Positions 14,719-30,580 of a stretch of 30,580 bases of DNA are shown in pieces. How positions within the stretch are numbered: position 1 is the first letter of the stretch; the number at the start of each line of letters is the position of its first letter. Source of the DNA: a virus. The stretch is taken from positions 1-30,580 of IMG/VR virus record IMGVR_UViG_3300017732_001590; one strand, written 5' to 3'. The notes beneath the pieces were generated by a model. The model had not been told where the DNA came from. It made no database searches and saw only the letters and a list, made by a program, of their open reading frames with translations. The position numbers and the translations under genes are program-made.

Positions 14719-15524
14719 TTGTATAACCTTCTAAATTCTTTATATAAAAAATCTGCCCATAATGAATGTGATTTTTCATCAGGATGTGAACCATTAAATC
14801 CACTCCATCCACCCTTAGTATTTTTAAATGTATTTACTTTATTATCCCACTCAAGAATACCACCTGTTTTCTTTTTCACCTCATCCATTATCCAATCTTC
14901 TTGACATTGATGGTAAATTTTATCAAGGTTATACAAATTTTCATAATTACCTTGTATGTGATGTAATACATTATTCTCCATAGAAAAATAAAAGTAGTAT
15001 TTTATATTATATTTTTCTAATAATTGTTGCATTGCAAATACTCGTAGGGCAGTTTCTTCGTTAAAATAATTATCATCAAAATAATACTTTACATATTGTT
15101 CCCAAAAGTTTTGTGATGGTGACATACCTAAAAATGGGCCGTGGTCTTTATTACCTGCGGGATCTCCACTAGCATCCATTCCATTATTATTGGAAGCAGA
15201 CATATATTCTGGTTGAACAGCAAAATTTATTGATTCATACATATTAGCAATATCATTATACCTTTCTGTTCTTACCGATTGTGACCAACCTAAAACTATA
15301 AAAGTATCTTTCAACTTATCTTTATTATTAAAAATCCAATCTTTTGTTGTCCTATAAATTCTATTATTAGAACTTCCATTTTGTGAATGGTTTATTTCTT
15401 CAACTCCCATTTTATCTGAAAGTACTTTACTCCATCGATGGGTAAATTGCCAATTACTATCATTTGGATTTTGTAATTCATCTCCCCAAACAAAGCTACA
15501 ACCATTTGTATATAAATATTTCAT
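14715..15524 (-). CDS. SGNH-hydrolase-like protein (paralog 1)
   Basis: A 269-residue protein that begins MKYLYTNGCSFVWGDEL. The GCSF box places a Ser at residue 10, as in the GDSL box of SGNH hydrolases. NGSSNNR near 50 matches the Asn/Gly blocks, GWS near 79 follows, and the C-terminal NGSHPDEKSHSLWA resembles the final block but has Asn where the catalytic Asp (DxxH) is expected. SGNH enzymes in glycan clusters are usually O-acetyl esterases or transferases acting on sugars. It is a paralog of 28344-29087, sharing the RWSKxLSDK and EEIN segments and an RTTxDW motif. ATG and stop overlap the neighbours by a few bases. Activity is uncertain because of the altered Asp. Confidence 0.65.
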   Translation of the reverse strand: MKYLYTNGCSFVWGDELQNPNDSNWQFTHRWSKVLSDKMGVEEINHSQNGSSNNRIYRTTKDWIFNNKDKLKDTFIVLGWSQSVRTERYNDIANMYESINFAVQPEYMSASNNNGMDASGDPAGNKDHGPFLGMSPSQNFWEQYVKYYFDDNYFNEETALRVFAMQQLLEKYNIKYYFYFSMENNVLHHIQGNYENLYNLDKIYHQCQEDWIMDEVKKKTGGILEWDNKVNTFKNTKGGWSGFNGSHPDEKSHSLWADFLYKEFRRLYK

Positions 15525-16642
15525 AACACATTCCTAATTTGTTCATCCATTGCCAACTTCATAACATTGAGTAATTCAGTATAGGAATGTTGATTTATAT
15601 TACAATTTGCGTATTTTTTTAATATTTTTTTATTGTGAATAATCTTAGGTTTAACCATTTCTAATAAATCTTGTAATTCTTGATTTGACTTGTCTTGTAG
15701 TTTTTTTAAATTATCTATAATAATTTCTGTCCGTTTTTTCAAATCATTTTCTTCATCATAACTCTCATCAAACAATTCAGGAAAAGTTTCAAATCCATAT
15801 TTTTTAATCCACTTTAATAGACTTGGTGAACCCAAAACCATAAATGGTTGATTGTACATTATTGGAAAATAAAATTTTTCTGTAAATCTTATATTAAATT
15901 TATGATATTCTGATTCTGTAACTACACTACAAAATGCATCTTTATAATAAGGAAGTATGGAATGAACTGAACTTAAATGTGATGTTTCTTGTTGATGGAT
16001 ACCACGGTGTGGGCCCAATCCCAAATCATCAAGATAAACTTCTTTCCATCTTGCAGAAACATGACCATCCTTTAACAAATTATTTTCTTTTAATTTATAA
16101 TATAATAATTCACGATGATCTCCTTTACTACTCATAGGACAGATAAATAATTTACTTCCGTCAAATTTTACTTCTTCTGTATAATCGTTAAGTGTATTCT
16201 TATGAGTATCCAAAGATGATATTAAACAATGGTTAAAGGAAACACTATTAAATCTCATTTTCTTATCAAGATTGATGTGGTCATAGTATTTATACATTCC
16301 ATGATTTGGCCCTTGATATATTATTTTTTCCATTGGTATGTTACACCACTTAAAAAAATTGTAATAATCTTTAATGGTATCTTTATGAAACATCCACTCC
16401 ACAGGTTCATATATTACAAGATAATCAAATTCAACTTCTAATAAGGCCTGTTTTGCACTAACCCAAGATGAATGATTAGAATTATCTTTAAAACTACATT
16501 TCCAATATTCCTCTTGGTCATAACACGGCCAAGGAAATTGTATGATTACAAATTTCTTATCATAATGTCTTTCAAAATAATTATTAATTACTTCGACTCC
16601 ACCATAGTTCCATCCGTCTGGCCAAGGTTTATGTAAAATCAT
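15521..16642 (-). CDS. Glycosyltransferase-like protein with the DESYDE module
   Basis: A 373-residue protein carrying the same module as four other genes in the window. The order is a Rossmann-like N-terminal half, LFICPMSSKGDHREL (the HR box), CSVVTESEYH, RFTEKFYFP (TEK), QPFMVLGS, and GFETFPELFDESYDEEND. A short helical tail ends in IHNKK. The TEK...P...GS.xxL arrangement recalls the nucleotide-sugar site of fucosyltransferase-type (GT10-like) and GT-B enzymes, but this is a weak resemblance. Probably a sugar transferase acting in the cytosol on a lipid- or protein-linked glycan. It forms an ATGA overlap with the next copy (16639), which fits gene duplication followed by divergence. Confidence 0.65.
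   Translation of the reverse strand: MILHKPWPDGWNYGGVEVINNYFERHYDKKFVIIQFPWPCYDQEEYWKCSFKDNSNHSSWVSAKQALLEVEFDYLVIYEPVEWMFHKDTIKDYYNFFKWCNIPMEKIIYQGPNHGMYKYYDHINLDKKMRFNSVSFNHCLISSLDTHKNTLNDYTEEVKFDGSKLFICPMSSKGDHRELLYYKLKENNLLKDGHVSARWKEVYLDDLGLGPHRGIHQQETSHLSSVHSILPYYKDAFCSVVTESEYHKFNIRFTEKFYFPIMYNQPFMVLGSPSLLKWIKKYGFETFPELFDESYDEENDLKKRTEIIIDNLKKLQDKSNQELQDLLEMVKPKIIHNKKILKKYANCNINQHSYTELLNVMKLAMDEQIRNVL
15754..15796. repeat. GT-module repeat, copy 2 of 5
   Basis: Plus strand catcataactctcatcaaac... aagtttcaaatcc. Very close to copies at 11991, 16830 and 26065. It encodes GFETFPELFDESYDE. Confidence 0.6.
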
Positions 16643-18108
16643 ACTTTAATTTCCTGTAACGAATTTAAAACTATCTGTTCTTTGTCAATTTTTTCCATAA
16701 CTGATTGATTGTGTTTAATTGTTGGTAATAACTGTATATAAATATCATGTAACTCATCAAATGACATATTAATTACTCTATGTACTTCTAATGTTACAAA
16801 TTTAATCCTTTCTACATAATCTTCTATTTCATCATAACTCTCGTCAAACAATTCAGGAAAAGTTTTAAACCCCAGCCCCCTAAGATATTTTAAATGATAA
16901 GGTGCTGTATAAAAAATACACGGATGAAACATCAAAGATTGTATTGTTTTGTCTGTACTTTTATGAATAGTACTATGTATATTATCGTCAAGATAAGGAT
17001 CGTGTTCAATAAAATCTATCGGTGGACTTTCAGTAACAATTGAAAAATAAGAGTTTTTATAATTTATATATCCTGGAGTATTTTCTACTATTGAACCACC
17101 ATATGGTGCATAACCAAATTTTTGAATTGTTCTATCGTGTCGATATTCAGCATCTTTTCCAGCAAACCATTGTTGAACAATTCGTTTTTCATCTATGTTA
17201 TCTATCTCATCAACTATTTTCTCATCACTCAAATCATATTTTTCCCAAACTCTTTTTATATTTTTTGGTAAAATAAAATCTTTATGTGTTATATGTGATA
17301 ATTGTGCCTCATCGATATCAGCGTGTTTTGAATGTGTTGCACCTTTGTCTAATAACAAAGGAAGTTTTGATAAAAAATCCTTGACTTCTTCTTGAGATAT
17401 TGTTAAATTTAATACACCAAAAAACTCATATATAAAATCTTCAAGTTCGTCTGGTTGGTCTTTACAAGAACCACAAGATATTAAACCATATTCATCAAGT
17501 TTATGTTGAAGTAAATATGCAATTAATCCAGCTCGGTATGGATGTAATGTACCATTGAATGTCACATACTTAAATGGCTTTCTATACTTTGTTAAATAAT
17601 TAGTTTGATTTTCATCGTATGGAACTACATCATCAAACATTTTCAAATAACATTCTGAATATCTATATGGTGCCCAATCAATTGTTAAATTATTTTCAAG
17701 TGGTAACGAACAATTTCCTTTATCTTTTATTTTGAAATTAATATTACCATCAAAAATATAAATATTATCCGTGTTAAATCCCCTTTTCTCAAATAAATCA
17801 AATAGGTAAATACGAACCGTAAGTAAAACTTGCTCAGTTCTTCTATCTAATATCAATATTAATTTATTTTGGTTTACTAAATCTTTTACTCTTTCGTAAT
17901 TAGACCAATCAAAATCAATAGATTTAGTTACAAAATTCCAAGGCGGAATATTAACAAAAAATAAATTTGTATATTCATCACTTAAATCTTCATATTTCGT
18001 TATAGGATTTTCGAAAAATGGATTATTAGTTTTGTAATGTATTTCCCAATTTACACAAGGTTCTAAACTACAATCTTTAGGTATAAATTGTCTATATGGA
18101 TATTTCAT
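16639..18108 (-). CDS. Glycosyltransferase-like protein with the DESYDE module (TEK replaced by TDK)
   Basis: A 489-residue member of the same paralogous family. The Rossmann-like N-terminal half contains LILILDRRTEQ and IYIFDGNIN. The HR-box equivalent reads TFNGTLHPYRAGL, followed by an insert of about 100 residues, SYFSIVTES, STDKTIQSL, FHPCIF, and GFKTFPELFDESYDEIED. The otherwise conserved T-E-K is T-D-K here, and the HR box is YR. The copy may therefore differ in substrate or activity. It overlaps the next copy upstream by 17 bases. It has no signal peptide or membrane segment, so it is probably cytosolic. The glycan role is inferred from cluster context. Confidence 0.62.
   Translation of the reverse strand: MKYPYRQFIPKDCSLEPCVNWEIHYKTNNPFFENPITKYEDLSDEYTNLFFVNIPPWNFVTKSIDFDWSNYERVKDLVNQNKLILILDRRTEQVLLTVRIYLFDLFEKRGFNTDNIYIFDGNINFKIKDKGNCSLPLENNLTIDWAPYRYSECYLKMFDDVVPYDENQTNYLTKYRKPFKYVTFNGTLHPYRAGLIAYLLQHKLDEYGLISCGSCKDQPDELEDFIYEFFGVLNLTISQEEVKDFLSKLPLLLDKGATHSKHADIDEAQLSHITHKDFILPKNIKRVWEKYDLSDEKIVDEIDNIDEKRIVQQWFAGKDAEYRHDRTIQKFGYAPYGGSIVENTPGYINYKNSYFSIVTESPPIDFIEHDPYLDDNIHSTIHKSTDKTIQSLMFHPCIFYTAPYHLKYLRGLGFKTFPELFDESYDEIEDYVERIKFVTLEVHRVINMSFDELHDIYIQLLPTIKHNQSVMEKIDKEQIVLNSLQEIKV
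16830..16872. repeat. GT-module repeat, copy 3 of 5
   Basis: Plus strand catcataactctcgtcaaac... aagttttaaaccc. It encodes GFKTFPELFDESYDE and is nearly the same as copies 2 and 5. Confidence 0.6.
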
Positions 18109-19447
18109 TTAAAAAATTATTTCGTTGTTCCACCGAGTATACTTTATAAAAGTGCTTATAATTGTGTTTCAATATATCTTTTATTGACCAATACCATTCA
18201 TGTAATTCTTCTAATGATTTCTCACATAATTTATTAATCTCTTTTTCTATAGCCAGAAATCTTTGTCCTGTATCATCAATGTTATCATATGACTCATCAA
18301 TAAAAGGTTCAAATGTTTTAAAACCATATTCCTTTAATTTTTTCAAACTACCAGCGTTACCTACATAAACAAACGGATGAAAATTGAGAATAGGTTTCCA
18401 AGTCTTTTCTGTAAATCCTATTGAATTACCATTTTTCTCTCGTGTTTCAAAATGTGATTCTGTACATATAGTAAAATATGTATCTAAATAATGTGGAATA
18501 ATATTATTAATAACTGAATGACATACTGTAAAATCTTTTTTATCTAAAACTAAAGGTAGTTTTTTCTTGAGATCATCGGCCCCATTTTCGTACTTACTTT
18601 CTACCTCTTTATCATTTAAAAGATATCCGTAATGTTGCGACTTTAAATAATCTTCCTCTTTGTCAACAACATCCCAACTACTCATACCATAATCAGGAAA
18701 TGATACTATACCTTTATCTAAATTATTATTGATATCTAAAGATAAAACTACTAATGCTCTATGTTCTTTGGGAAGTCTGTTATAGCATAAAAAATATTTA
18801 CTTCTTACATTATTCTCACCATCTTCCCATTTTTCTCTATTTTCTATACTTCTTGAATGTCCACCATGATATAAATTATTTTTATGTTCGTTATTAAATC
18901 TATCAACGGTATTAGTACAATAATTAGAAACTACCATTTTAATATCATTAATATCTGATTCTTCATTCAACAATACATTAGCATCACTATATATTACATT
19001 TTTTAATGGTATTTCTTTTTTTAATAGTTTTTTTACAAACTCATCATACAATCTAAATAAAGAATCACCATGTATAGAATCTTCTTCATATCCATAATAT
19101 ACTAATAATTTTGCTTGATTATTACGAAGATGTTCTAAAGTTGTATTCGGAATAAAATCTAAAAATGATGTGTTGACATCCTTATTAGACCAAATATCTA
19201 TACCTATCGAATGTCCAAAATTTCTCACACATCCAGGATATACATATTTTTCATTTTTTATTTTCGATACTAATTTAATATCTACATCTTGATTTTCAAA
19301 ATATTCACCAATTACAAAACCAGAATCACAAGGGAAGTAGTCAAATGATTTATACTCAATACAATTATCTATCGGTGTGAATCTTCCTTGTGTAGTTACT
19401 CTTGGTGGGCCTTCATCTGAAAATTTATCAACTCCTATTGTTAACAT
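18092..19447 (-). CDS. Glycosyltransferase-like protein with the DESYD module
   Basis: A 451-residue protein of the same family, with a Rossmann-like region (LLVYYGYEEDS and NVIYSDANV), the HR box FLCYNRLPKEHRAL, TYFTICTESHF, GFTEKTWKP, FHPFVYVG, and GFKTFEPFIDESYDNIDD. The start is taken as the ATG at 19447, which gives only a 20-base overlap with the preceding SDR gene and a GGAT upstream. The frame is open to 19510, but that would overlap the SDR gene by 83 bases. The N-terminus (TIGVDKFSDEGPP) differs from the other copies and may carry an accessory function. It lies directly after the branched-sugar candidate genes and may transfer their product. Confidence 0.62.
   Translation of the reverse strand: MLTIGVDKFSDEGPPRVTTQGRFTPIDNCIEYKSFDYFPCDSGFVIGEYFENQDVDIKLVSKIKNEKYVYPGCVRNFGHSIGIDIWSNKDVNTSFLDFIPNTTLEHLRNNQAKLLVYYGYEEDSIHGDSLFRLYDEFVKKLLKKEIPLKNVIYSDANVLLNEESDINDIKMVVSNYCTNTVDRFNNEHKNNLYHGGHSRSIENREKWEDGENNVRSKYFLCYNRLPKEHRALVVLSLDINNNLDKGIVSFPDYGMSSWDVVDKEEDYLKSQHYGYLLNDKEVESKYENGADDLKKKLPLVLDKKDFTVCHSVINNIIPHYLDTYFTICTESHFETREKNGNSIGFTEKTWKPILNFHPFVYVGNAGSLKKLKEYGFKTFEPFIDESYDNIDDTGQRFLAIEKEINKLCEKSLEELHEWYWSIKDILKHNYKHFYKVYSVEQRNNFLNEISI
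18283..18324. repeat. GT-module repeat, copy 4 of 5 (diverged)
   Basis: Plus strand tatcatatgactcatcaataaa... It encodes GFKTFEPFIDESYDN and is the most diverged copy, with the Pro and Glu of FPE swapped. Confidence 0.5.
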
Positions 19448-20378
19448 ACCAATCCACAGTTTTTTTAATTCCTTCTTCAAAAGACCACTTTGGTTCAAAT
19501 CCAAGTTCATCTTTAATTCTTTCGGTACTTACCATTCTAAAAGGTATCGTGGTTGGTTTTGTTTCATCATATTGTACTTTTGGATTTTTATTTGTGGCCT
19601 TTAAAACTGCATCTACAATATCACCAACTGTAATTGCTGTTCCAGCCCCAACATTATATGGTCTCATAGATTCTCCCTTTTCTAAAACTAACAATCCACC
19701 ATCAACTACATCTCTGACATATAAAAAATCCCTAACAACATCTGATGTTCCCCAAACCACAAACGGATCCTCACCACTTAAAACTCTGTTAATTAGTGCA
19801 GGAACTACATGACAAGTTTTAGGATTAAAGTTGTCAAATGGCCCATACATTGCAGTTCCTCTTGCTAAGGCTATTTTTAAATTGGAAAATCCACTTACAA
19901 ACTCCATTAGTTTTTCTCTATACCTTCTCATCCACCCATAACCAAAGTAAGATTCATGTGGTTCTTCATCCCAATATTCATCTTCTGTAATTGGATATCG
20001 TTTATCTGGATAACCAGTAGAACTATTTATATCCAAATAACCTTTAAGTTCACATTTTGCTGCGGCCTCTAAAACATTTGCAGTACTATTAATGTTATGT
20101 AACAATACTTGAACATTAGTTCTTACTTCTGATGGATTTGTTATGTAACCACCACAATGAATAACATAGTCAGCACCTTCTAATAGTTTAATACAATCTT
20201 CAAGTTTAAATAAATCTATATTTTCTATAACTTTAATTCTATCATCTTCTATTTCCATAGGTCTAACATGAGTGTGAGTGGTAACATCGGCACCTCTTTC
20301 AAGTAGTTCAAGTATAAAGTTTGTTCCTACGAAACCACTTCCACCCGTTACAACAACTTTTTTATCTTTATAAAACAT
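19428..20378 (-). CDS. NDP-sugar epimerase/reductase (extended SDR)
   Basis: A 316-residue extended short-chain dehydrogenase/reductase. TGGSGFVG at 11-18 binds NAD(P); HCGGYI and NSSTGYP (Ser/Thr of the triad) follow. The segment expected to hold Y-x3-K reads YGWMRR at 147-152, so the triad Lys is replaced by Arg. The C-terminal ALARGTAMYGPFDNF and VVRDFLYVRDV are typical of sugar-nucleotide members such as GDP-fucose synthase and 4-reductases. Its ATG directly abuts the stop of the ColD-like gene. A likely job is reduction or epimerisation of the branched keto sugar made by the two enzymes upstream, as YerF does in yersiniose synthesis. That role is inferred. Confidence 0.82.
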   Translation of the reverse strand: MFYKDKKVVVTGGSGFVGTNFILELLERGADVTTHTHVRPMEIEDDRIKVIENIDLFKLEDCIKLLEGADYVIHCGGYITNPSEVRTNVQVLLHNINSTANVLEAAAKCELKGYLDINSSTGYPDKRYPITEDEYWDEEPHESYFGYGWMRRYREKLMEFVSGFSNLKIALARGTAMYGPFDNFNPKTCHVVPALINRVLSGEDPFVVWGTSDVVRDFLYVRDVVDGGLLVLEKGESMRPYNVGAGTAITVGDIVDAVLKATNKNPKVQYDETKPTTIPFRMVSTERIKDELGFEPKWSFEEGIKKTVDWYVNNRS

Positions 20379-21563
20379 TTATGACTCCTCATTTAATTTA
20401 GTACATAATTCTATTATTTGATTTTCTTTTAATTCAGGATGATTCCCAACATACAATCCAAACTGATGTATGTAATCAGAATTTGGTAAATCACCAGCAT
20501 AGTAATCATATTTTTCTAAATATGGTTGTTTAGCCTGATTACCACCACCAGCAGTTCCTACTCTGTATTCTACTTGGTTATCTTCTAATATATCACATAC
20601 TCTAATAAATCTGTCTTTATCATTGTTTAAAACTATTAATGGTAGTGCAAAATTACTATTTCCATCTGTTTGATAATCAGTTTTGAACACAGACGAATCT
20701 AATTTACCTAACCAAAGATATAAATTATCTACTCGTTTATCTATATTATAATCTAATCTTTTTATTTGAGATAAACCAAGTATTGCATTTAATTCTTGAT
20801 TTCTCATATTATAACCTGGTACTGCAAAAGTAAAAAGTGGGTTTAAATCAGGATGTGATATTTCGTATTTTTTTTGTAATTTTCTTCCCAATTCATCATT
20901 TTGTAAATAATCCAATCGAGTCATTCCGTGTGAACGAAACATTTTTGCATATTGATATATTTCATCATCATTTGTACAAACCATACCACCTTCGATTGTT
21001 GTCATGTGGTGTCCAAAATAAAATGAAAAATTAGACACATCACCAAAAGTTCCTATTTTATTACCTTCGTATGTTGCACCATGAGATTCACAACAATCCT
21101 CAATTAAGAATAAATCATTGTCCTTACAATATTTTACCAACTCGTGTGTTATTGCGTTGAAACCCAAACAATGAACAAGTGTAACTCCAATTGTATTTTT
21201 ATTTACAAAAGATTTTATCTTTTCTAAATCAGTAGAAAAGGTTTCCAAAGAAACATCTACAAAAACTGGCTTTAATCCAAGATTCACGATAGGTGATACA
21301 TCACTCACCCAACCTAAAGTTGGAACTATAACTTCACCAACTCCCCTCATTTCTTTCATAATAGAAACCATTATGTAATTTGCTGAGGCTCCTGAATTTA
21401 CAAAAACACTATGTTTCACATCTAACCATTCCGACCAAACATTTTCAAACTCTTTTACTTTACTTCCTTGAGTAAATCTTGCATTATCGATACTGATGTA
21501 ATCAATAAGTTGTTGTTTATCTTCTTGAGTTATACTATCGTTTATAAGTTGCCATTTAAACAT
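20379..21563 (-). CDS. DegT/DnrJ/EryC1-fold sugar dehydratase, ColD-like (His in place of PLP Lys)
   Basis: A 394-residue fold-type-I PLP protein of the DegT/DnrJ/EryC1/StrS family. NSGASANYI near 56-64 binds the PLP phosphate, LIEDCCESHGA near 153-163 holds the pyridine-binding Asp, and FSFYFGHHMTTIEGGM at 179-194 is the site of the usual internal aldimine Lys. Here the Lys is replaced by His185. This is the hallmark of 3-dehydratases such as ColD (GDP-4-keto-6-deoxymannose 3-dehydratase) and RfbH, not of aminotransferases. RfbH also needs a [2Fe-2S] cluster and ColD does not. No such Cys cluster is seen here, so the ColD type is preferred. It would remove the 3-OH of a 4-keto-6-deoxy sugar nucleotide. 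The ATG overlaps the stop of the thiamine-diphosphate enzyme (TAATG). Confidence 0.82.
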   Translation of the reverse strand: MFKWQLINDSITQEDKQQLIDYISIDNARFTQGSKVKEFENVWSEWLDVKHSVFVNSGASANYIMVSIMKEMRGVGEVIVPTLGWVSDVSPIVNLGLKPVFVDVSLETFSTDLEKIKSFVNKNTIGVTLVHCLGFNAITHELVKYCKDNDLFLIEDCCESHGATYEGNKIGTFGDVSNFSFYFGHHMTTIEGGMVCTNDDEIYQYAKMFRSHGMTRLDYLQNDELGRKLQKKYEISHPDLNPLFTFAVPGYNMRNQELNAILGLSQIKRLDYNIDKRVDNLYLWLGKLDSSVFKTDYQTDGNSNFALPLIVLNNDKDRFIRVCDILEDNQVEYRVGTAGGGNQAKQPYLEKYDYYAGDLPNSDYIHQFGLYVGNHPELKENQIIELCTKLNEES

Positions 21564-23419
21564 TAATCATTACCCCATTCTTCATCATTCGTATTGGATG
21601 GATAAAATCTTCCATTTTGATATTTGATTGGTTCAATATACATATTTGAACTGAACTCATCTTCCTCTAAATAAGGATACATATCCTCGATTGGTGTTTC
21701 CCAACCGATTATCTTTGGATTATAATTATGATATTCATGACAATTTAAATCCATAACAATAGGACCTTCGTGATTCAAAAACTCTCTAATCTGTTCTCGG
21801 ACTTTTTCATAATCTGAACCATCGTCCACTATCATCGTAGGTATTTTATACGCCTCAACAATATCTTTAAAGTTTGGTGGATTGTATCCTATAGGCCCAC
21901 ATGCTTCCATCCTACCCTCAAAATTAGTTTCTTGGAATGCCTTAGTTATACCATAAATATGATTATTCATAATGATAGTTTTTAAGGGAATGTCATAATT
22001 TAATAAAGTTTGTAGTTCTTGTATATTCATATTGAATCCACCATCACCAATCACACAAACTACATTTTGTGATTTATCTGCTGCTACTGCTGCTCCAAGT
22101 CCACCAGCAAACGAGAATCCCATAGGTGAGTTTCCATTATTTGTAAAGTATCTTTGACCAGTTTTTGTTTCAAATGCGTGATTAGTAACCACAATGTTAC
22201 CCCCACAATCACCACAGAATATATCATTACTTTTCATTTCTTCTGATAGAATACGAGTAAATGCATATGGATGTACATACTTGGTTGGTTTAAACATATC
22301 CTTTGTTACAGGATCATATTTATCTCTCCAACCTTTTACTCTATCTACCCACCAAGTAAAATCAGGTAAAGTTTCCGTTCTCTCTAAAATTAATAACTTT
22401 TTCTGTAAAATATTAATAAATAATTTTGCATCTGAGTAAATACATTCATCAAATGGAACTTGCTGTAGTTTCTTTTGTAATCCAGGTATATCAACATCTA
22501 CCGTATATTTTTTAGCATTTCTAGCAAAACTATGTATGTTACCACCAGTAATTCTACCTGATATCCTACTACCTATTGCTAATAATAAATCAGAATTTTG
22601 GATTCCAAAGTTTCTTCCTTTTCCACCATAAGTTCCAATCCTACCACCAAAATATTCATAATCATCACATACAACATCAAGTGCGTTCCAAGTTGGAAAC
22701 ATAGGAATCTTTAAAGTTTTACCGAGTTGTAATAATTCATCAATGGCACCACTTAATCTAACTCCACCACCAATCATCAAACAAGGTCTTTCACTATTTT
22801 TAAAATCTTTAATGAAGTTATCAACTTGTTCCTCAATTTTAGAAACATTATATGTATCCCCAACCGTATCTTCAAATCCAACCAAACTATCAACATCTTC
22901 TATATCTTGTTTTTGAATATTTAATGGTATATCTAACAATACAGGACCAGGACGACCTTCTTTTGCTTTATGTATAGCATATTCAAGTTCATACTTAACA
23001 TCATTTTTATCTGTTATCATCTTTGCATATTTTGTAATAGGTTCTACTATTCCAACTATATCTGTCTCTTGAAATCCTATCTGTCTGATACTTTCATTAG
23101 GTCTCATAAACTGAGAATTAATTTGACCAGTTATAAATAAACACGGAACACTATCGTAAAAACAATTTCCGATTGGTGTGACAAGATTCATTCCACCAGG
23201 ACCACTTGTAGACATTGCAACTCCTATATCACCACTAACTTTTGAATAACCTTCGGCAGCAAAACCACCACCTTGTTCGTGCATAGTTGCTATGTATCGT
23301 ATGTTATCATTTCTCGTAAATCCATCAACTAAATCTCCGTTAGCGTGTCCATACACAACGAATATTTCTTTTACCCCTATATCGGATAGATGGTTTATTA
23401 TATAATCTGCTACTTTCAT
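21563..23419 (-). CDS. Acetolactate-synthase-like thiamine-diphosphate enzyme (possible YerE-type sugar carboligase)
   Basis: A 618-residue protein with the three-domain layout of acetolactate-synthase-like ThDP enzymes. The N-terminal PYR domain has the activating Glu48 in MHEQGGGFAAEG and TSGPGGMN, a central FAD/ADP-type domain follows (LMIGGGVRLSGA), and the C-terminal PP domain has GDGGFNMNIQEL and NNHIYG. It could decarboxylate pyruvate and join the two-carbon unit to an acceptor. YerE of Yersinia, of this superfamily, adds the C2 unit to a 3,6-dideoxy-4-keto sugar nucleotide. Its position directly before a ColD-like dehydratase and an SDR makes that the best guess. A plain acetolactate synthase for branched amino acids is less likely, since no IlvC or IlvD is nearby. 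The TAATG overlap couples it to PanB. Confidence 0.85.
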   Translation of the reverse strand: MKVADYIINHLSDIGVKEIFVVYGHANGDLVDGFTRNDNIRYIATMHEQGGGFAAEGYSKVSGDIGVAMSTSGPGGMNLVTPIGNCFYDSVPCLFITGQINSQFMRPNESIRQIGFQETDIVGIVEPITKYAKMITDKNDVKYELEYAIHKAKEGRPGPVLLDIPLNIQKQDIEDVDSLVGFEDTVGDTYNVSKIEEQVDNFIKDFKNSERPCLMIGGGVRLSGAIDELLQLGKTLKIPMFPTWNALDVVCDDYEYFGGRIGTYGGKGRNFGIQNSDLLLAIGSRISGRITGGNIHSFARNAKKYTVDVDIPGLQKKLQQVPFDECIYSDAKLFINILQKKLLILERTETLPDFTWWVDRVKGWRDKYDPVTKDMFKPTKYVHPYAFTRILSEEMKSNDIFCGDCGGNIVVTNHAFETKTGQRYFTNNGNSPMGFSFAGGLGAAVAADKSQNVVCVIGDGGFNMNIQELQTLLNYDIPLKTIIMNNHIYGITKAFQETNFEGRMEACGPIGYNPPNFKDIVEAYKIPTMIVDDGSDYEKVREQIREFLNHEGPIVMDLNCHEYHNYNPKIIGWETPIEDMYPYLEEDEFSSNMYIEPIKYQNGRFYPSNTNDEEWGND

Positions 23420-24345
23420 TAATCCCTCTTTGTAGTTATTGGTGTAACACTATGTTTGGGTTTTGCTAAATTCTCAACCCTATCTTTTTCATACTTCCAA
23501 GATGTATCACCAAGTAGTTTTTCAAGTTCTTCTTCTTTAATTTCATAAAAGTTTTCTTCTGCTGGAAACTGACCACCCTTTACTTCTGATTTATAATCTT
23601 CAAGTGCCGATTGTATCAACTGACCTGCTTCACAATATCTCTTTACAAACTTAGATTTAAACTCCCAAAACAATCCTACTAAATCGTGAAGAATAACAAG
23701 TTGTCCATCAACTCTATCTCCTGCACCAATACCATAAACTGGTATATCAAGTGTTTCTGCTATTATTCCTGCTGGTTCGGTTGGCATTGCTTCTAATAAT
23801 AATGCTGAACATCCAGCATCTTGTAATCTTTTTGCTTGGTCTAACACTATCTCAGCACTCTTTGCTGTTTTACCTTGAACTTTATATCCACCAAGTTTAG
23901 CACGAGTATGTGGTGTTAATCCCAAATGACTCATAACCATAATACCTGAATCACATATTGCCTTGATTCTATCAACCATTGCTCCCTCAACCTTTACCAT
24001 ATCCATACCAGCAACTATGAATCTTCCAGCGTTTCTAACTGCCAATTCATTTGATTCTTGGTAGGACATATAAGGCATATCACCGATTAAGAAAGCATCT
24101 TTTGCTCCTCGTGATACTGATTCACAATGGTTTATCATCTCATCCATTGTAACGGGTATAGTTGTTTTGTATCCGTGTGTTGTCATCCCACAAGAATCAC
24201 CTACAAGTATTGCATCAACACCTGCCTTATCTGCTATTAGTGATTGTGGATAATCATAAGCGGTAACAAGACAAGTTTTTTCTTTTGTTCTCTTATGTTT
24301 TCTTAATTTTATTATTGTAGTTTTTGTTCTACTATCTGCTGGCAT
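23419..24345 (-). CDS. panB: 3-methyl-2-oxobutanoate hydroxymethyltransferase (ketopantoate hydroxymethyltransferase)
   Basis: A 308-residue PanB: the TIM-barrel enzyme that adds a hydroxymethyl group from methylene-tetrahydrofolate to 2-oxoisovalerate, giving ketopantoate for pantothenate and CoA. The expected motifs are present: VTAYDYP near 27-33, the metal site VGDSCGM at 48-54, a second Asp in LIGDMPYMSYQ, the Glu in MVKVEGAM, VMSHLGLTPH, LLLEAMPTEP with the catalytic Glu, and PVYGIGAGDRVDGQ. Length is normal apart from a C-terminal extension of about 40 residues. The ATG has an ideal AAAAAGGAGTTA upstream. PanB in a sugar cluster is unexpected. It may supplement host CoA synthesis, or hydroxymethylate another keto compound used in the glycan. 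No panC or panE is in the window. Confidence 0.93.
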   Translation of the reverse strand: MPADSRTKTTIIKLRKHKRTKEKTCLVTAYDYPQSLIADKAGVDAILVGDSCGMTTHGYKTTIPVTMDEMINHCESVSRGAKDAFLIGDMPYMSYQESNELAVRNAGRFIVAGMDMVKVEGAMVDRIKAICDSGIMVMSHLGLTPHTRAKLGGYKVQGKTAKSAEIVLDQAKRLQDAGCSALLLEAMPTEPAGIIAETLDIPVYGIGAGDRVDGQLVILHDLVGLFWEFKSKFVKRYCEAGQLIQSALEDYKSEVKGGQFPAEENFYEIKEEELEKLLGDTSWKYEKDRVENLAKPKHSVTPITTKRD

Positions 24346-25235: not shown

Positions 25236-25869
25236 CTCTACTTCTCCAAGTTTCGGGCAACTTATCATCATTTTTAATACAAAAACCAGTAAGTGTATAT
25301 CTACTTTCCTTTGACCAATTATTTGTCGGTGTAACCCAATGAGGTATACCCATAGAATGATTATGTATCACTAATCTGTTTGGTTGTGGTAAAATAGTTT
25401 TAATATCATTATCAATTGACATATGTAGTAATCCACCCCAATCATATTTCCAAGTTTCTTTTTGAAAATGCATCACATATCCAATATAACCCATATAATC
25501 ATCTACATGGGTTCTTAAAAAATCTTTACCATTTCTATTATACTTTGTTGCCTGATGTCTACCTTTACCAGACTTTCCATCCGTAATAGATTCAATAATA
25601 GGTTTTATATATTTTTTATAAATCTCCAAAACTCGTGGACTATGAGATACACCTTGACTTCCATAAAAATGATTTGTATACACCTCATCTACTGATGGGA
25701 AATATTCATCACCACTATTCCACAATTCATATCTATCATCAAATGATTGTGCAATTTCTTCATACTCACCTTCTTGAAAAATATCTACTATCTCATTGTA
25801 AATATCAATAGGTAAAAAATCATCAATTACCACATATCCGTTTTTATTATATTTTATTTTATAATTCAT
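25216..25869 (-). CDS. 2OG-Fe(II) oxygenase (prolyl-4-hydroxylase-like)
   Basis: A 217-residue protein with the double-stranded beta-helix pattern of 2OG-Fe(II) oxygenases. LRTHVDDYMG holds H-x-D (His121, Asp123), WGGLLHMSI is the central strand, and MGIPHWVTPTNN with His177 is followed by SRYTLTGF with Arg190, the likely 2OG anchor. The spacing H-x-D...about 55...H...13...R is typical. Similar small oxygenases are widespread in T4-like marine phages; their substrates are mostly unknown. The ATG abuts the previous gene by an 11-base overlap. In this cluster a sugar or an acyl/amino group may be hydroxylated. Unlike 24360-25235 it is single-domain and short, so the two are not recent duplicates. 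Confidence 0.75.
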   Translation of the reverse strand: MNYKIKYNKNGYVVIDDFLPIDIYNEIVDIFQEGEYEEIAQSFDDRYELWNSGDEYFPSVDEVYTNHFYGSQGVSHSPRVLEIYKKYIKPIIESITDGKSGKGRHQATKYNRNGKDFLRTHVDDYMGYIGYVMHFQKETWKYDWGGLLHMSIDNDIKTILPQPNRLVIHNHSMGIPHWVTPTNNWSKESRYTLTGFCIKNDDKLPETWRSRDDYSIL

Positions 25870-26923
25870 TTGGATTTTTCATAATTTTTTCATATAAATC
25901 CGATACTAATTTGTCTCTATCCCAATCATGAAAAAGTCGTTGATTGTATAGTATCTTATCGTAAACGGAATCATACATTTCTTTTAATTCTTCTAAAGAT
26001 TTTTTATTAAGTTCTAAAATGTTATTTAATACTGCATCATATCGTCCACGAACATCTTCTATCTCATCATAAGACTCATCAAAAAATTCAGGAAAAGTTT
26101 TAAATCCTAAACCTTTTAAATACCTTAATGTATAAGGACATCCCAAAACTATAAATGGATGAAAAAATAAAGCTCTCCAAGTTTTCTCAGTTATTTTTAA
26201 TGGTGTGTTTGGATAATCTTTTACTAACTCCTCTGGTATCTGACTATTAAACCAAGTTTCCGTAACAACAGAAAAATATGAATCTTGAAAATATTTAATA
26301 TGTGTTTGTATTGACAGATGTTCATCACTTTCATCAGCACCATCTAATCTTTTTTTGTTACCAGACCAAAAATCCTTTGAAAGTTCTACTTTTGCCCATA
26401 CAGCGTTCCAATCTATTTTTATTTGTTTTTTAACCCAATCATAAAACTCCTCACCACCAAAATTATTTGAATAATGAGAATCTTCTAAACAATTATTTTT
26501 GTATAAATCATCTAATAATACTACTCTATGTGGTTGAAATGAACCGTTCATACATAAAAATTTCTTTGTTTTAAGTTTATTATCATTTTCTTGAAATAAA
26601 AATTTCTTATAATATTCCCAACCTACTCCATCTCCAAGTGGACAATATAAATACTCATCCCAATTCTCAACAAAATCAAGTGGAAGATTAAGATTACCCT
26701 CTATAATAACAAAATCATCTTTAGTCATGTTATATCTATCTTTCATTACTTCCAACAATTTTTTTATTCTTAGAGCATCTGAAGCTTCGTGACGAGTTAA
26801 AATAAGTGTTCTTTTATTGAAATCAATTTTACTATACCACCTATACCAATCATACGGATCCTTTTGAGTTGGCAAACCTCTACCACCATCTAATATCCGT
26901 TTTAGTGTTATTACATCACTCAT
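25859..26923 (-). CDS. Glycosyltransferase-like protein with the DESYDE module
   Basis: A 354-residue protein and the most compact member of the family. It has the Rossmann-like half (RTLILTRHEASD and FVIIEGNLN), the HR box KFLCMNGSFQPHRVVL, SYFSVVTETWF, KITEKTWRALFFHPFIVLGC, and GFKTFPEFFDESYDEIED. An N-terminal segment of about 30 residues precedes the fold. This copy best shows the GT10-like T-E-K-x-W-R-A-L pattern of alpha-1,3-fucosyltransferase-type enzymes, so it probably transfers a sugar from a nucleotide donor (perhaps GDP-linked). It lies between an SDR and the oxygenases, away from the other four copies. The ATG overlaps the SDR gene's stop by eight bases. Confidence 0.68.
   Translation of the reverse strand: MSDVITLKRILDGGRGLPTQKDPYDWYRWYSKIDFNKRTLILTRHEASDALRIKKLLEVMKDRYNMTKDDFVIIEGNLNLPLDFVENWDEYLYCPLGDGVGWEYYKKFLFQENDNKLKTKKFLCMNGSFQPHRVVLLDDLYKNNCLEDSHYSNNFGGEEFYDWVKKQIKIDWNAVWAKVELSKDFWSGNKKRLDGADESDEHLSIQTHIKYFQDSYFSVVTETWFNSQIPEELVKDYPNTPLKITEKTWRALFFHPFIVLGCPYTLRYLKGLGFKTFPEFFDESYDEIEDVRGRYDAVLNNILELNKKSLEELKEMYDSVYDKILYNQRLFHDWDRDKLVSDLYEKIMKNPNEL
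26065..26107. repeat. GT-module repeat, copy 5 of 5
   Basis: Plus strand catcataagactcatcaaaa... aagttttaaatcc. It encodes GFKTFPEFFDESYDE, about 8 kb from the nearest other copy. Confidence 0.6.
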
Positions 26924-27827
26924 TGATTTTTAAATACCACTCAATGGTATTATGTATTCCTTCTGTTAAAGATACATTTGGTGTAAACCCATAACTTTCT
27001 GCACGTTCTGTACTCATTATTCTTTTCATATCACCCATAGGTTTTGTAGTATCCCACTTAATCTCTTTACCAAAATATTTAGAAACTATTTCTGCAACTT
27101 CCTTGATGGTTACTCCTGTTCCACTTGCAAGATTAACTGGTTCATTTACTTCGTTCTGTACCATATGTAACATTCCACGTGCCACATCTTCAGCATAAAT
27201 TAAATCTCTTATAGGTGAACCATCACCCCACACTTCCAATACATCATTTTCAAAGGCCTTTTTAATTAATGATGGAACAACCATAGACCATTCACCAAAA
27301 TTATCATAAGGACCATATACATTAGCAGGTCTAACTATTGAACAATTTTTATTGTTGGTTTCTTCCATATACGATTGAACATTTAATTCTCCCATTCTTT
27401 TTGCCCAGCCAGGATACCAATCGTGTTTTGACGGAAATGTTTCCCATACGTCATCCTCGTAAAAAACTTCTGCGGGATGGTACACACCTACTGAACTTGT
27501 GTATAAATACCACTTACATTTAGAATTAAAAGCTGCTTCAGCCATATTTGCACCAAACTGAACTTGTGGAACACTAAATGTCGCTGGAGATTCTATCACT
27601 CGTTTTGGTGAACCTTTAAGTCCGGCGAGATTAAAAATAAAATCTTTACCTTCACATATTTCTTCACAAAATTTTCTACTTCTTAAATCACCTTCGATAT
27701 CAACGGGTAATTGTGAAGTTGGTAAATCTACTCTTGTAACATTAGCATCTAAATCTTTTAATAATTTTATTAAAAAATGTGCCACCATTCCACCACCACC
27801 TGTTACTAATACACTTTTATTTTTCAT
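26916..27827 (-). CDS. NDP-sugar epimerase/reductase (extended SDR)
   Basis: A 303-residue extended SDR. VLVTGGGGMVAHFL at the N-terminus binds NAD(P), NLAGLKG follows, then YTSSVGVY with the triad Ser. The Y-x3-K region reads WYPGWAKRMGE: the Tyr (138) lies four residues from the Lys (143), so the usual Y-x3-K spacing is off by one. IVRPANVYGPYDNFGEW and PIRDLIYAEDVARG are typical of sugar-nucleotide epimerases and GDP-fucose synthase-like reductases. The ATG is set at 27827; the longer frame to 27851 would overlap the preceding gene more. It probably acts on the 4-keto sugar made by the dehydratase at the right edge. Exact reaction unknown. Confidence 0.8.
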   Translation of the reverse strand: MKNKSVLVTGGGGMVAHFLIKLLKDLDANVTRVDLPTSQLPVDIEGDLRSRKFCEEICEGKDFIFNLAGLKGSPKRVIESPATFSVPQVQFGANMAEAAFNSKCKWYLYTSSVGVYHPAEVFYEDDVWETFPSKHDWYPGWAKRMGELNVQSYMEETNNKNCSIVRPANVYGPYDNFGEWSMVVPSLIKKAFENDVLEVWGDGSPIRDLIYAEDVARGMLHMVQNEVNEPVNLASGTGVTIKEVAEIVSKYFGKEIKWDTTKPMGDMKRIMSTERAESYGFTPNVSLTEGIHNTIEWYLKINE

Positions 27828-28347
27828 TATAAAAATCTCCTTGTTCCACAATCATTGTAGAACCTTCGTTTTCGTAAGCCTTTTTAAATGCAGGAAATAT
27901 TTCTTCAGGCTCATTTAATAAAACTACATCAATTTCTGTTAAATTATCTTTCATCATCTGAGTGTAATCTCGTGTGTGTTGTATCCCACCATCCAATGGA
28001 AATTTAGCCCCAATGGAAGTTCTAATAATGACCTTTGGTTGAAATATATTTTCTGTCATATATTTAACCTTGTCTAAATGGTTCATTAATGCATCCATAC
28101 ACCTCATTAAAAAATCAAATCGTGGAAAACAACTAATTGGAACATATCCATCTAATGCTAATCCTGTACTCATTCCCATTTGAACTTCCTCAAAAACAGG
28201 AAGTTCTATCATTTTCTCTGATGGTAAAGTATTTAATGTATTATAAATGGCATTACCACTATATAAAACTGATTGTCCAAGAAAAACTGTATCATCTTTC
28301 TCACTCAACCACTCCATACTTCTTATTAATTCATCTTTGTATTTCAT
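27817..28347 (-). CDS. Mini E1 beta-like protein (transketolase PYR domain only)
   Basis: A 176-residue protein that matches the pyrimidine-binding domain of E1 beta/transketolase-type ThDP enzymes. FEEVQMGMSTGLALDGYVPI near residues 52-71 holds the activating Glu, then an aromatic strand ISCFPRFDFLMR, and a segment ending GGIQHTRDYTQMM. Canonical E1 beta chains are about 320-340 residues with a C-terminal transketolase_C domain, which is missing here. Its partner with the diphosphate-binding domain is the 29089-29718 gene; an SGNH-type gene is inserted between them. Together they could form a small alpha/beta carboligase or decarboxylase making a modified acyl or keto sugar. The ATG overlaps the SGNH stop by a few bases. 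Confidence 0.75.
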   Translation of the reverse strand: MKYKDELIRSMEWLSEKDDTVFLGQSVLYSGNAIYNTLNTLPSEKMIELPVFEEVQMGMSTGLALDGYVPISCFPRFDFLMRCMDALMNHLDKVKYMTENIFQPKVIIRTSIGAKFPLDGGIQHTRDYTQMMKDNLTEIDVVLLNEPEEIFPAFKKAYENEGSTMIVEQGDFYNEK

Positions 28348-29087
28348 AATATATTTTTAACCTTTACATAAAGTTCTTCTGATAATTTCTCGTGTGCTTC
28401 AATACCAGGATGTCCGTGATATCCGTGTTCGTCATCTTTAAAATCAATTCCAAAACTTTTTAATTTTTCTGCTATATGATGAAAACTATTAATTGATTTA
28501 TTATAATTCCACCAATGATTTTTATCAAGAAACAACTTATATTTATTTTCTTTAATTACATCAACTTGTAATCCAATTGCATCAAAAAATAAGTAAGATA
28601 TATTATTTGATTGAAAAAAAGATTGTAATGAAATTATTTTTCGTAAGTAATTATCCTTAACTTCTTTTTTGTTGTGATGTTCTTTCCAATACTGAATTAC
28701 ATATTTTTGTAATCTCTTGTCATCCCTATCATTATGAGTAGGTTCTCCATTTGAAACTTGTACATATCTATCCAAGTAATTATCATAAAACTCAAATCTA
28801 TCATAGCCTGTCCAACCAATAACAAATAAAGTTTCACTTAAATCTTCAATATGGTTAAGTGCCCAATCCATAGTAGTTCTAAATATTTTATCATTTGAAT
28901 TACCATGTCTGGCCTGATTTATTTCTTCTAAATCAAGTTTATCTGAAAGTAATTTACTCCACCTCTCATCAAATCCAATATCCCACTCCGTGTGTTTTAA
29001 TTTTAATCTTTTTATCCGTTCATCAGAATATTCAATTAAACAAGAACCATCAGACATACTATCTCCACCAACATACAAATATTTCAT
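28344..29087 (-). CDS. SGNH-hydrolase-like protein (paralog 2)
   Basis: A 247-residue protein starting MKYLYVGGDSMSDGS. The GDS box at 8-10 is the classical nucleophile block. HGNSNDK follows, then GWTGYD, and the C-terminal HGHPGIEAHEKL in place of the usual DxxHP block, so the Asp may be missing. It is similar to 14715-15524 (RWSKxLSDK, EEIN, and RTTxDW segments). The ATG at 29087 lies one base from the stop of the E1 alpha-like gene (29089), which fixes the start; the frame to 29138 would overlap it by 50 bases. It separates the two halves of the ThDP pair. A role in O-acetylation or deacylation of the glycan is inferred. Confidence 0.65.
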   Translation of the reverse strand: MKYLYVGGDSMSDGSCLIEYSDERIKRLKLKHTEWDIGFDERWSKLLSDKLDLEEINQARHGNSNDKIFRTTMDWALNHIEDLSETLFVIGWTGYDRFEFYDNYLDRYVQVSNGEPTHNDRDDKRLQKYVIQYWKEHHNKKEVKDNYLRKIISLQSFFQSNNISYLFFDAIGLQVDVIKENKYKLFLDKNHWWNYNKSINSFHHIAEKLKSFGIDFKDDEHGYHGHPGIEAHEKLSEELYVKVKNIL

Positions 29088-29088
29088 A

Positions 29089-29718
29089 TTAAAATAATAC
29101 CCAATTTCCTGTTCCATGATGTGGAAATCCTCTGTCATATTGATAGTAAATTACACCATATGGGATATCTCTTTTTTTATAATTCCAAGTTTCATCTGTT
29201 GGTGTATTGGTACTCATATTATTATCCTCAACAACAAATTGTAATGGTAAATCAAAATTAGTTGCGTATTTATGTGCCTCATAAAAGATACCCGTTTCAA
29301 AGGCCATATCTCCTATAAAACACCAAGCCTTTTGTTTAGAACCCTTCCGTTTTAAAGATAGTGCCGTACCAAGTGCAATAGATATAGTTCCACCCACAAT
29401 AGAAGATGAGTAAAGCTTAGGTTTTTTAGAATGTACACTCATACTTCTACCACGAACTACCAAATCCATTAGTGTGTCTCGTGGAACACCATGTAAAAGT
29501 GCATGATGGTGATTTCTATGTCCACAAAAAACCCAATCATCAGGATGTACATATTGAAATATTTCTATCAATTCCTTTTCGTTATTTTTAGTTAAATGAA
29601 CAGGAGCTTTTATTTCAGTATTTTCATACTTCTCTTTGACTTCTTCTTCAAATTCGATTAAATCGGATTCTGTTATTTTAATATCTCTTACTTTTTCTAA
29701 TGTGTATGGTATATTCAT
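29089..29718 (-). CDS. Mini E1 alpha-like thiamine-diphosphate protein (PP domain)
   Basis: A 209-residue protein that matches the diphosphate-binding half of E1 alpha/transketolase enzymes. CGHRNHHHALLHGVP near 65-79 resembles the E1 alpha HRxHxxxLxxG region, SSIVGGTISIALGTAL near 105-120 is next, and the ThDP/Mg motif begins GDMAFETG (136) and ends DNN at 165-167, with normal spacing of about 30 residues. Canonical E1 alpha is about 330-400 residues. Here the C-terminal part is cut short, about 40 residues after the motif. The ATG at 29718 overlaps the RmlC stop (ATGA), which decides the start over 29769. It pairs with 27817-28347. Similar short E1-like pairs are seen in sugar and natural-product clusters. 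Confidence 0.78.
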   Translation of the reverse strand: MNIPYTLEKVRDIKITESDLIEFEEEVKEKYENTEIKAPVHLTKNNEKELIEIFQYVHPDDWVFCGHRNHHHALLHGVPRDTLMDLVVRGRSMSVHSKKPKLYSSSIVGGTISIALGTALSLKRKGSKQKAWCFIGDMAFETGIFYEAHKYATNFDLPLQFVVEDNNMSTNTPTDETWNYKKRDIPYGVIYYQYDRGFPHHGTGNWVLF

Positions 29719-30191
29719 CTGTCTCTCCCAAATAAAGTTGGATTGTTGTGGGGCCATTCGAATGACCACATCTCATCATCCCATTTTATGACAAATTGTT
29801 TATCTATATCATTGTAATTCCCATCAAATGCCTGTTTGTAATGAAATGTACAATCATCACTTAGAACAAAGTGTCCATTTGCACAACCAGGTGGAACTAA
29901 AACTTGTTTTCTGTTTTTAGCTGATAATACAAACGAATCCCAATCTCTATATGATGGTGAGCTAGGTCGATTATCTGCAACTATAAGGTAAAATTCTCCT
30001 TGTACACAATTTATAAGTTTCCAAGTTTTATCATCTCCGTGTAAACCTCGTAGTGTATTTTTTCGTGAATGTGAAAATTTATCAAGTCTCCAATTTAGTC
30101 TTGGATATTTTTCACTATCCCAAGTTGTGTAAATATCACCTCTGAAATCTTCCCAAGCATCTATTTCAAAAGTCTCTAATCCTTCAATCAT
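29715..30191 (-). CDS. dTDP-4-dehydrorhamnose 3,5-epimerase-like (RmlC family) cupin
   Basis: A 158-residue cupin of the RmlC family. FSHSRKNTLRGLH at 39-51 ends in the catalytic His51, VPPGCANGHFVLSDD gives the second strand, and CTFHYKQ carries the Tyr. Standard RmlC proteins are about 180 residues, so this is slightly short. RmlC inverts C3 and C5 of a 4-keto-6-deoxy sugar nucleotide. The sugar here may be GDP- rather than dTDP-linked, given the ColD-like gene. The start is the ATG 30191, since GGAG lies nine bases upstream and it overlaps the previous stop (ATGA). The longer frame to 30206 would need TTG. It is the second gene in reading order after the SDR at the right edge. Confidence 0.88.
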   Translation of the reverse strand: MIEGLETFEIDAWEDFRGDIYTTWDSEKYPRLNWRLDKFSHSRKNTLRGLHGDDKTWKLINCVQGEFYLIVADNRPSSPSYRDWDSFVLSAKNRKQVLVPPGCANGHFVLSDDCTFHYKQAFDGNYNDIDKQFVIKWDDEMWSFEWPHNNPTLFGRDR

Positions 30192-30580
30192 AAAACTTTT
30201 CTCCAATAATTTAATAAATCATCACAAATTTCTTCTAATCCTTTTATTGGTTTCCAACCTGTTTTCTCTCGGAATTTATCACTACTTGGTATTTGTAATG
30301 TAATATCAGTTGGTCTAACTCTTGCAGGATCAAGTTCTTTTATAAAGGCTTTAGGATTTATTGATTTTGATATTAACATATCTAATGCATCTCCAACCGT
30401 ACAAGTGTAATCACCACCTATATTATAAACTTCACCAGAATCACACTTATCTACGGCCAACCAATAGGCATGAACTGCATCTTCTATATGATTATAAGTT
30501 CTAACGGAATCGAGATTTCCGTGTTTAATAGGATGTGTTGGGAAACTTGGGGCATATGGTGGAAAGTTTTCATCTTTTTC
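30188..30580 (-). CDS. NDP-sugar dehydratase (GDP-mannose 4,6-dehydratase/RMD-like SDR), C-terminal part
   Basis: The gene runs in from the right edge; the last 130 residues are visible. They begin before VRTYNHIEDAVHAYW (the typical substrate-domain helix), then GEVYNIGGDYTCTVGDALDML, and end with LDPARVRPTDITLQIPSSDK, then TGWKPIKGLEEICDDLLNYWR. The RPTD... and GWKP...L...YWR pattern is characteristic of GDP-mannose 4,6-dehydratases and the related GDP-6-deoxy-4-keto-mannose reductases (RMD). The reading frame is open to the edge, so the gene starts outside. If a dehydratase, it would provide the 4-keto-6-deoxy sugar needed by the ColD-like enzyme. The N-terminal NAD-binding motif is not in view, so the exact class is not settled. 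Confidence 0.8.
   Translation of the reverse strand, partial: EKDENFPPYAPSFPTHPIKHGNLDSVRTYNHIEDAVHAYWLAVDKCDSGEVYNIGGDYTCTVGDALDMLISKSINPKAFIKELDPARVRPTDITLQIPSSDKFREKTGWKPIKGLEEICDDLLNYWRKVL

Follow-up and report, generated by a model that had tools for sequence, protein, structure and literature searches.

The virus record IMGVR_UViG_3300017732_001590 of IMG/VR, whose whole stretch of 30,580 bases is called the window here, contains a partial terminase gene (PHROG terminase match, 3e-27) and carries on its minus strand a long sugar gene cluster, in which two short genes encode proteins resembling the alpha and beta chains of the E1 enzyme of pyruvate dehydrogenase. The two chains, referred to as PP and PYR after their domains, are separated by a third gene of the SGNH type. 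The reading that we favour, and to which we give somewhat better than an even chance, is that PP and PYR act together as a C2 carboligase on a nucleotide-linked 4-keto-sugar in a phage sugar pathway; the product is probably an unusual branched sugar for the surface coat. Our computations yielded a predicted E1 fold for both domains, a conserved cofactor site, purifying selection, a pairing of the two genes that is kept among relatives, a context of sugar genes and a derived insertion of the third gene. The three genes, with the predicted roles of their products in binding thiamine diphosphate (ThDP), are the following:

29089-29718, minus strand: PP chain, E1-alpha-like, predicted ThDP diphosphate- and Mg-binding subunit, 209 amino acids (Pfam E1_dh, 2.1e-16)
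28344-29087, minus strand: SGNH-type (DUF6071) gene between PP and PYR, 744 bases, 247 amino acids (Pfam PF19547, 3.2e-19)
27817-28347, minus strand: PYR chain, E1-beta-like with predicted catalytic Glu53, 176 amino acids (Pfam Transket_pyr, 8.8e-7)

Domain identity, fold and cofactor site

An earlier reading of the sequence only had assigned PP and PYR domains to these two chains, and the open reading frames and Pfam domains agree with it. It had also stated that the beta chain lacks the Transketolase_C domain; indeed, a Pfam scan of the 176-residue PYR chain gave no match to Transketolase_C and found only Transket_pyr, with a score of 29.2 bits, which is just above the curated cut-off of 27. 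Neither PP nor PYR passes any NCBIfam model at its cut-off. The best NCBIfam match of the pair, below cut-off, is pyruvate dehydrogenase E1-alpha, and with TIGR03182 the window protein scores 87.4 bits against an equivalog cut-off of 393.85, so that the threshold for E1 of pyruvate dehydrogenase or branched-chain keto acid dehydrogenase is not reached. Profiles built from 30 PP and 33 PYR proteins have human pyruvate dehydrogenase E1-alpha (7.4e-15) and E1-beta (7.4e-12), respectively, as their best matches in the PDB.

Structures were predicted for single chains, and a natural fused homologue of 402 amino acids from locus L157 was folded to cover both domains. The AlphaFold2 model of the window PP chain (mean predicted local distance difference test score, pLDDT, 93.8) aligns with human E1-alpha (1ni4_A) over 194 residues with a Z-score of 19.6 and a root-mean-square deviation of 2.6, whereas the Z-scores against a split transketolase and DXS are 14.6 and 14.2. 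The model of the fused homologue (pLDDT 92.7, predicted template modelling score 0.93) matches E1-beta (1w85_B) in its PYR half with a Z-score of 24.0. This match is limited to residues 1-176 of 324. The pair thus retains both the PYR and the PP core but not the third domain. As modelled, both domains have the pyruvate dehydrogenase E1 fold.

Conservation was audited in 100 PP and 94 PYR sequences, from which duplicates and the near-identical twin of the window described below had been removed. The PP columns H41, G136, D137, N166 and H200 are invariant in all 100 sequences and R68 is kept in 99, and the PYR columns E53 and H124 are invariant in all 94. H41, R68, G136, D137 and N166 of PP and E53 and H124 of PYR align with cofactor-site residues of human E1, from which we take their roles (GD..N in PP, the Glu and His in PYR), with H124 presumably corresponding to His128 of human E1-beta. 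The ratio of nonsynonymous to synonymous substitution rates (dN/dS) ranges from 0.010 to 0.217 across eight close pairs; the PP/PYR pair is thus under purifying selection.

Gene order and insertion of the SGNH-type gene

The PP, SGNH and PYR genes are packed as a single operon: one base separates the PP stop codon from the ATG of the SGNH gene, the SGNH stop and the PYR start overlap (ATGA), and the end of PYR overlaps by 11 bases with the start of the gene at 26916-27827. The presence of a 744-base SGNH-type gene between the pair, as described in the sequence-only reading, could be confirmed; the label SGNH is given by motif alone, the Pfam match being DUF6071. A twin record of 65.8 kb (L077), which is 99.95% identical to the window across 9,489 bases, has the same arrangement, in the order 4,6-dehydratase-like short-chain dehydrogenase/reductase (SDR), RmlC, PP, SGNH, PYR, SDR. 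A truncation or assembly artefact is ruled out by this second record and by relatives with similar chain lengths and ends.

With the PYR protein as query, 31 loci were found in viral contigs, and with PP, 15; an alignment of PP proteins retrieved 369 viral stretches and, from genome contigs, 27 loci. Gene order was counted in the best 80 of the 369 viral stretches, which biases the counts to close relatives; removal of six duplicates left 74 distinct loci. In 63 of these, the closest relatives of the window included, PYR comes directly after PP, separated from it by no more than 102 nt, and the remainder have a single gene between the two (three loci: L077, L084 and L148), several genes (five loci) or no PYR within the stretch examined (three loci). 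Among the genome loci, PP and PYR are adjacent in 24 of 27, and no PYR was seen in the other three. They also lie apart in L025 and L027-L031, which stem from the search with the PYR protein. The three-gene order is therefore far from universal among the relatives, and the expectation that alpha and beta genes normally adjoin each other holds. Since PP and PYR are adjacent in most viral and genome loci, the insertion of the SGNH gene between them is derived.

The sequence-only reading had suggested that a copied gene was inserted, and of this proposal the insertion is supported and the copying is not. A paralogue of the SGNH gene is indeed found about 13 kb away, at 14715-15524 and thus at a distance of 12.8 kb; however, the two are merely 30% identical over 191 aligned positions, which rules out a recent duplication. 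Another paralogue, in the twin record, shows 29% identity over 275 positions, and a pattern search of viral contigs for close relatives of the inserted gene gave only the twin record. None of the relatives examined other than the twin shares this gene at the same place between PP and PYR. L084 and L148 hold different genes in the same gap, which have SGNH-like motifs by eye, do not closely resemble the gene of the window and lack a Pfam match, and this also argues against copying; that every single-gene insert belongs to DUF6071 is unsupported. In a FastTree phylogeny of both domains, L077, L084 and L148 are placed apart, among relatives with adjacent genes, from which we infer separate insertions. 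In the window and in L084, the SGNH and PYR genes each start with ATG or GTG followed by AAATA. This common start might aid recombination, a weak clue since other such SGNH proteins in the window also start with MKY.

Family size, distribution and fused form

Chain lengths in the family are mostly around 195 to 215 amino acids for PP and 175 to 186 for PYR. The chains had been described as miniature E1 subunits, and they are short, but this is the normal size of the family and not a truncation peculiar to the window. The 27 genome loci come from bins of Chloroflexi, Gammaproteobacteria, Pelagibacteraceae, SAR116, Parcubacteria-type bacteria, Bacteroidales and others, and some of them may be viral contamination. 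One contig binned with a gammaproteobacterial metagenome-assembled genome (L074) is 98.6% identical to an IMG/VR viral contig (L139) over 12,468 bases, so that this bin probably contains a phage contig.

In the cyanophages S-SM2 and P-TIM68, both domains reside in one protein of about 400 amino acids annotated as 'transketolase central region-containing protein', and 57 viral loci (L157-L213, not de-duplicated) match this fused form. Similarly, the window PP and PYR chains match positions 4-199 (6.7e-51) and 237-404 (1.7e-27) of the 405-position profile of phrog_34187, a family of unknown function. A further E1-like enzyme within a biosynthetic cluster is RenH of the renieramycin cluster (plasmid MK748462.1, L214), in which a stretch resembling PP shows 28% identity to the PP chain of the window (E 4e-10).

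Neighbouring sugar genes

The following features of the window are relevant to the context of the pair:

30188-30580, minus strand: nucleoside diphosphate (NDP)-sugar 4,6-dehydratase-like SDR, C-terminal part only in the window, whole in the twin record
29715-30206, minus strand: RmlC-like NDP-4-keto-sugar 3,5-epimerase, immediately upstream of PP (Pfam dTDP_sugar_isom, 1.3e-32)
26916-27827, minus strand: SDR reductase/epimerase (Pfam Epimerase, 1.3e-36; best NCBIfam match GDP-L-fucose synthase, below cut-off)
23419-24345, minus strand: PanB (NCBIfam, above curated cut-off)
21563-23419, minus strand: acetolactate-synthase-like ThDP enzyme (NCBIfam, below cut-off)
20379-21563, minus strand: RfbH/ColD-like pyridoxal phosphate (PLP) enzyme (NCBIfam, below cut-off)
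14715-15524: paralogue of the inserted SGNH-type gene

The complete 4,6-dehydratase-like SDR comprises 343 amino acids (L077:6500-7531) and has LegB-, RmlB- and gmd-type matches, all below cut-off. Neighbour classes were built from the same loci in which they were counted, and the TK_N class was left unused, as it may capture PP itself. In the 74 viral loci, genes near PP encode RmlC-like proteins (66 loci), SDRs (67), 4,6-dehydratase-like proteins (52), PfkB kinases (33) and nucleotidyltransferases (19). In the 27 genome loci, GHMP kinases (15), 4,6-dehydratase-like proteins (13), RmlC (11) and SIS proteins (7) were found. Of the 57 fused loci, 56 include a Zn-alcohol dehydrogenase, 41 an S-SM2-type kinase and 32 a SIS protein, and none includes RmlC; they thus represent a second, distinct module type. 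Orders such as that of L050 (hddC-gmhA-PP-PYR-4,6-dehydratase-hddA) suggest modified heptoses, where HldE, HddA, HddC and GmhA are names that we presume from the Pfam domains of one representative each.

The PanB, acetolactate-synthase-like and RfbH/ColD-like genes are consecutive at 20379-24345 on the minus strand, and the RfbH/ColD-like enzyme has His-His in what we take to be the region of the usual lysine. It can be speculated that these genes form a YerE/ErwE-type sugar-branching module, and, equally speculatively, that PanB could supply a hydroxylated 2-keto-acid donor. Several proteins encoded at 15521-19510, 25859-26923 and 11794-14718 share a C-terminal motif of the type GFxTFPE(F/M/L)FDESYDE and apparently constitute a paralogous glycosyltransferase-like family; the two members that were scanned, 25859-26923 and 15521-16642, gave no Pfam match. 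In another viral locus, a 591-residue open reading frame (L153:5214-6989) joins a PYR domain in frame with a glycosyltransferase-like domain, which resembles, as judged by eye, the family of 25859-26923. Beside the sugar cluster, a ferredoxin-like protein is encoded at 9358-9660 on the minus strand, whose FdxA-type matches are below cut-off.

Proposed function and alternative explanations

The sugar-gene neighbours, together with the full-size E1 pairs that are proposed or shown to perform C2 branching, make C2 transfer to a nucleotide-linked 4-keto-sugar the reaction that we favour for the pair. The fusion of PYR with a glycosyltransferase-like domain in L153 also speaks for this, and the term 'minimal ThDP carboligase' of the sequence-only reading is a plausible fit to the gene context. 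For this reaction we infer an assembly, a donor, an acceptor, a product and a role for the SGNH gene as follows. PP and PYR would form one E1-type ThDP enzyme of which just the two domains that bind the cofactor are left. It would probably assemble as an alpha2beta2 tetramer and hold ThDP where PP and PYR meet. The 4,6-dehydratase-like SDR and the RmlC-like epimerase would provide a 4-keto-6-deoxy sugar, either a hexose or a heptose. By decarboxylation of a 2-keto acid, for which pyruvate is the likeliest candidate, PP/PYR would then obtain a C2 unit and attach it at the keto carbon, after which the SDR would reduce the branched product and a glycosyltransferase would transfer it to a glycan. 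The product of the SGNH gene, a later insertion between cooperating subunits, may add acyl groups to this glycan or remove them from it.

The pair could instead be a transketolase- or DXS-like enzyme with free sugar phosphates as substrates, which might make or reshape a ketose of the sedoheptulose-7-phosphate type for heptose synthesis rather than branch a nucleotide sugar. Each of the three groups has genes of heptose type close to the pair, namely the split viral loci (PfkB and nucleotidyltransferase), the genome loci (GHMP and SIS) and the fused loci (S-SM2-type kinase and SIS), and the whole fused model aligns with transketolase at full length (351 residues, Z-score 21.2). We nevertheless regard this as unlikely: E1 is closer both by sequence and by per-domain structure, separate split-transketolase-like genes are also present in 11 and 10 of 107 loci, and the RmlC and 4,6-dehydratase partners work after nucleotide activation. 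Still less probable is a simple 2-keto-acid decarboxylase or lyase that gives an aldehyde to a neighbouring enzyme, for which the model would be the phosphonopyruvate decarboxylase RhiEF, described as an active heterotetramer of separate PP and PYR chains (PMC12141560). The Zn-alcohol dehydrogenase near the fused relatives could reduce such an aldehyde. However, the sequences are E1-like rather than decarboxylase-like, including H124, the presumed E1-beta histidine; the best matches of the pair are of the E1 type, and RhiEF and ComDE are not among the matches listed, which does not exclude them. Decay of a full-size E1 to a remnant without catalytic activity, which the SGNH gene would have divided still more, would account for chains of about half the usual length without Transketolase_C, but it is highly improbable, since dozens of relatives have the same size and similar termini, and the invariant catalytic columns and low dN/dS values largely refute it.

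Several observations weigh against a carboligase acting on a 4-keto-sugar. RmlC-like genes are found in just 11 of the 27 genome loci and in none of the fused loci, so that the neighbours do not prove the substrate, and the different partners of the split form (RmlC) and the fused form (Zn-alcohol dehydrogenase) indicate that the acceptor may vary between branches. The Mg-binding Asn of the split-form proteins is replaced by Asp in the S-SM2-type fused protein. In the twin record, which is possibly incomplete, no match to the GmhA-type PF13580 was found and the heptose nucleotidyltransferase PF01467 gave one match below cut-off (19.8 of 21 bits) within a 581-residue frame; as neither a heptose nucleotidyltransferase nor an isomerase is evident in these 65.8 kb, the heptose link for the virus of the window comes from its relatives. 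Moreover, the acetolactate-synthase-like enzyme of the window is itself a candidate brancher, and DegT-family enzymes, encoded near PP in 46 of the 74 viral loci, could compete for the 4-keto group. The pairs that serve as precedents for C2 branching are full-size E1 enzymes whose beta chain includes the Transketolase_C domain, which is missing here.

A broader proposal, which we put forward tentatively and consider rather doubtful, is that the family represents a widespread, so far unrecognised class of miniature E1 carboligases, through which marine phages and some bacteria would produce nucleotide-linked heptoses or hexoses with a C2 branch for their surface glycans; this would be the first case of E1-type branching outside antibiotic pathways. 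The phage of the window would add a second, YerE/ErwE-like module (PanB, acetolactate-synthase-like and 3-dehydratase-like enzymes) and might therefore have two distinct higher sugars with branches among its products. If true, hundreds of viral sequences labelled 'unknown function' or 'transketolase-like' would be small sugar-decorating enzymes that form carbon-carbon bonds, thereby illustrating how phages diversify surface glycans and extending E1-type sugar branching beyond secondary metabolism. With 385 residues for both chains of the window, they would also provide very small ThDP carboligases for biocatalysis. The gene order also provides a clear example of how a gene can become lodged between the genes for the two subunits of an enzyme.

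Comparison with known systems

Two-chain ThDP enzymes consisting of PP and PYR only, as well as E1-type sugar branching, are already known; no report of an E1-type pair of this small size from the sugar clusters of phages, or of a phage ThDP sugar enzyme, was evident among the open-licence papers searched. The phrog_34187 proteins of S-SM2 and P-TIM68 likewise consist of a PP domain followed by a PYR domain and are also encoded in sugar gene clusters; however, they are one fused chain, whereas the window has two open reading frames with a third between them, and the fused loci partner with Zn-alcohol dehydrogenase instead of RmlC. In split-gene transketolases, the C-terminal chain consists of PYR and TKC, and no TKC was found in the window PYR. 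Sulfopyruvate decarboxylase (ComDE) has PP and PYR in two chains. The same holds for RhiEF, which like the window pair is a ThDP enzyme without a third domain (PMC12141560); both belong to the decarboxylase branch, whereas the best matches of the window pair are E1-type.

The set of 4,6-dehydratase, RmlC-like epimerase and fucose-synthase-like reductase resembles that of the Campylobacter GDP-heptose pathways, which use DdahB/MlghB, DdahC/MlghC and a PLP-dependent C3-dehydratase (PMC7949155, PMC10440746). Unlike in the window, no ThDP enzyme is mentioned in the descriptions of these pathways that were examined. YerE-like enzymes for yersiniose, erwiniose and caryophyllose carry out ThDP-dependent C-branching of a nucleotide-linked keto-sugar for surface polysaccharides, as proposed here; they are single long chains of the acetolactate synthase type, for which the window has a separate candidate at 21563-23419. 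According to a review, E1-type branching leads to secondary metabolites and YerE-like branching to cell-surface sugars (PMC12247030).

The closest parallels to the proposed reaction are AviB1/AviB2, Pau11/Pau12 and KbDH-alpha/beta (alphaKADH2), in which separate E1-alpha- and E1-beta-type genes act on a 4-keto-sugar. For Pau11/Pau12 and AviB1/AviB2, both full-size E1-type pairs, addition of a C2 branch to keto-sugars was proposed or shown (PMC4425429, PMC4753412), for EvdU5/EvdS3 it is a hypothesis (PMC10338323), and KbDH-alpha/beta catalyses C2 branching of sugar analogues with pyruvate in vitro (PMC12247030). Pau11 and Pau12 comprise 325 and 345 amino acids and function in antibiotic production, whereas the window chains are shorter and lie in clusters resembling those for phage surface glycans. 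The window PP shares with the alphaKADH2 pairs an E1-alpha-type PP domain on its own chain. The alphaKADH2 beta chain combines PYR with Transketolase_C, which the window chain, with Transket_pyr alone, does not match; the ThDP/Mg-site residues of the alphaKADH2 pairs, in turn, are present throughout the window family (D137 and N166 in PP, E53 and H124 in PYR).

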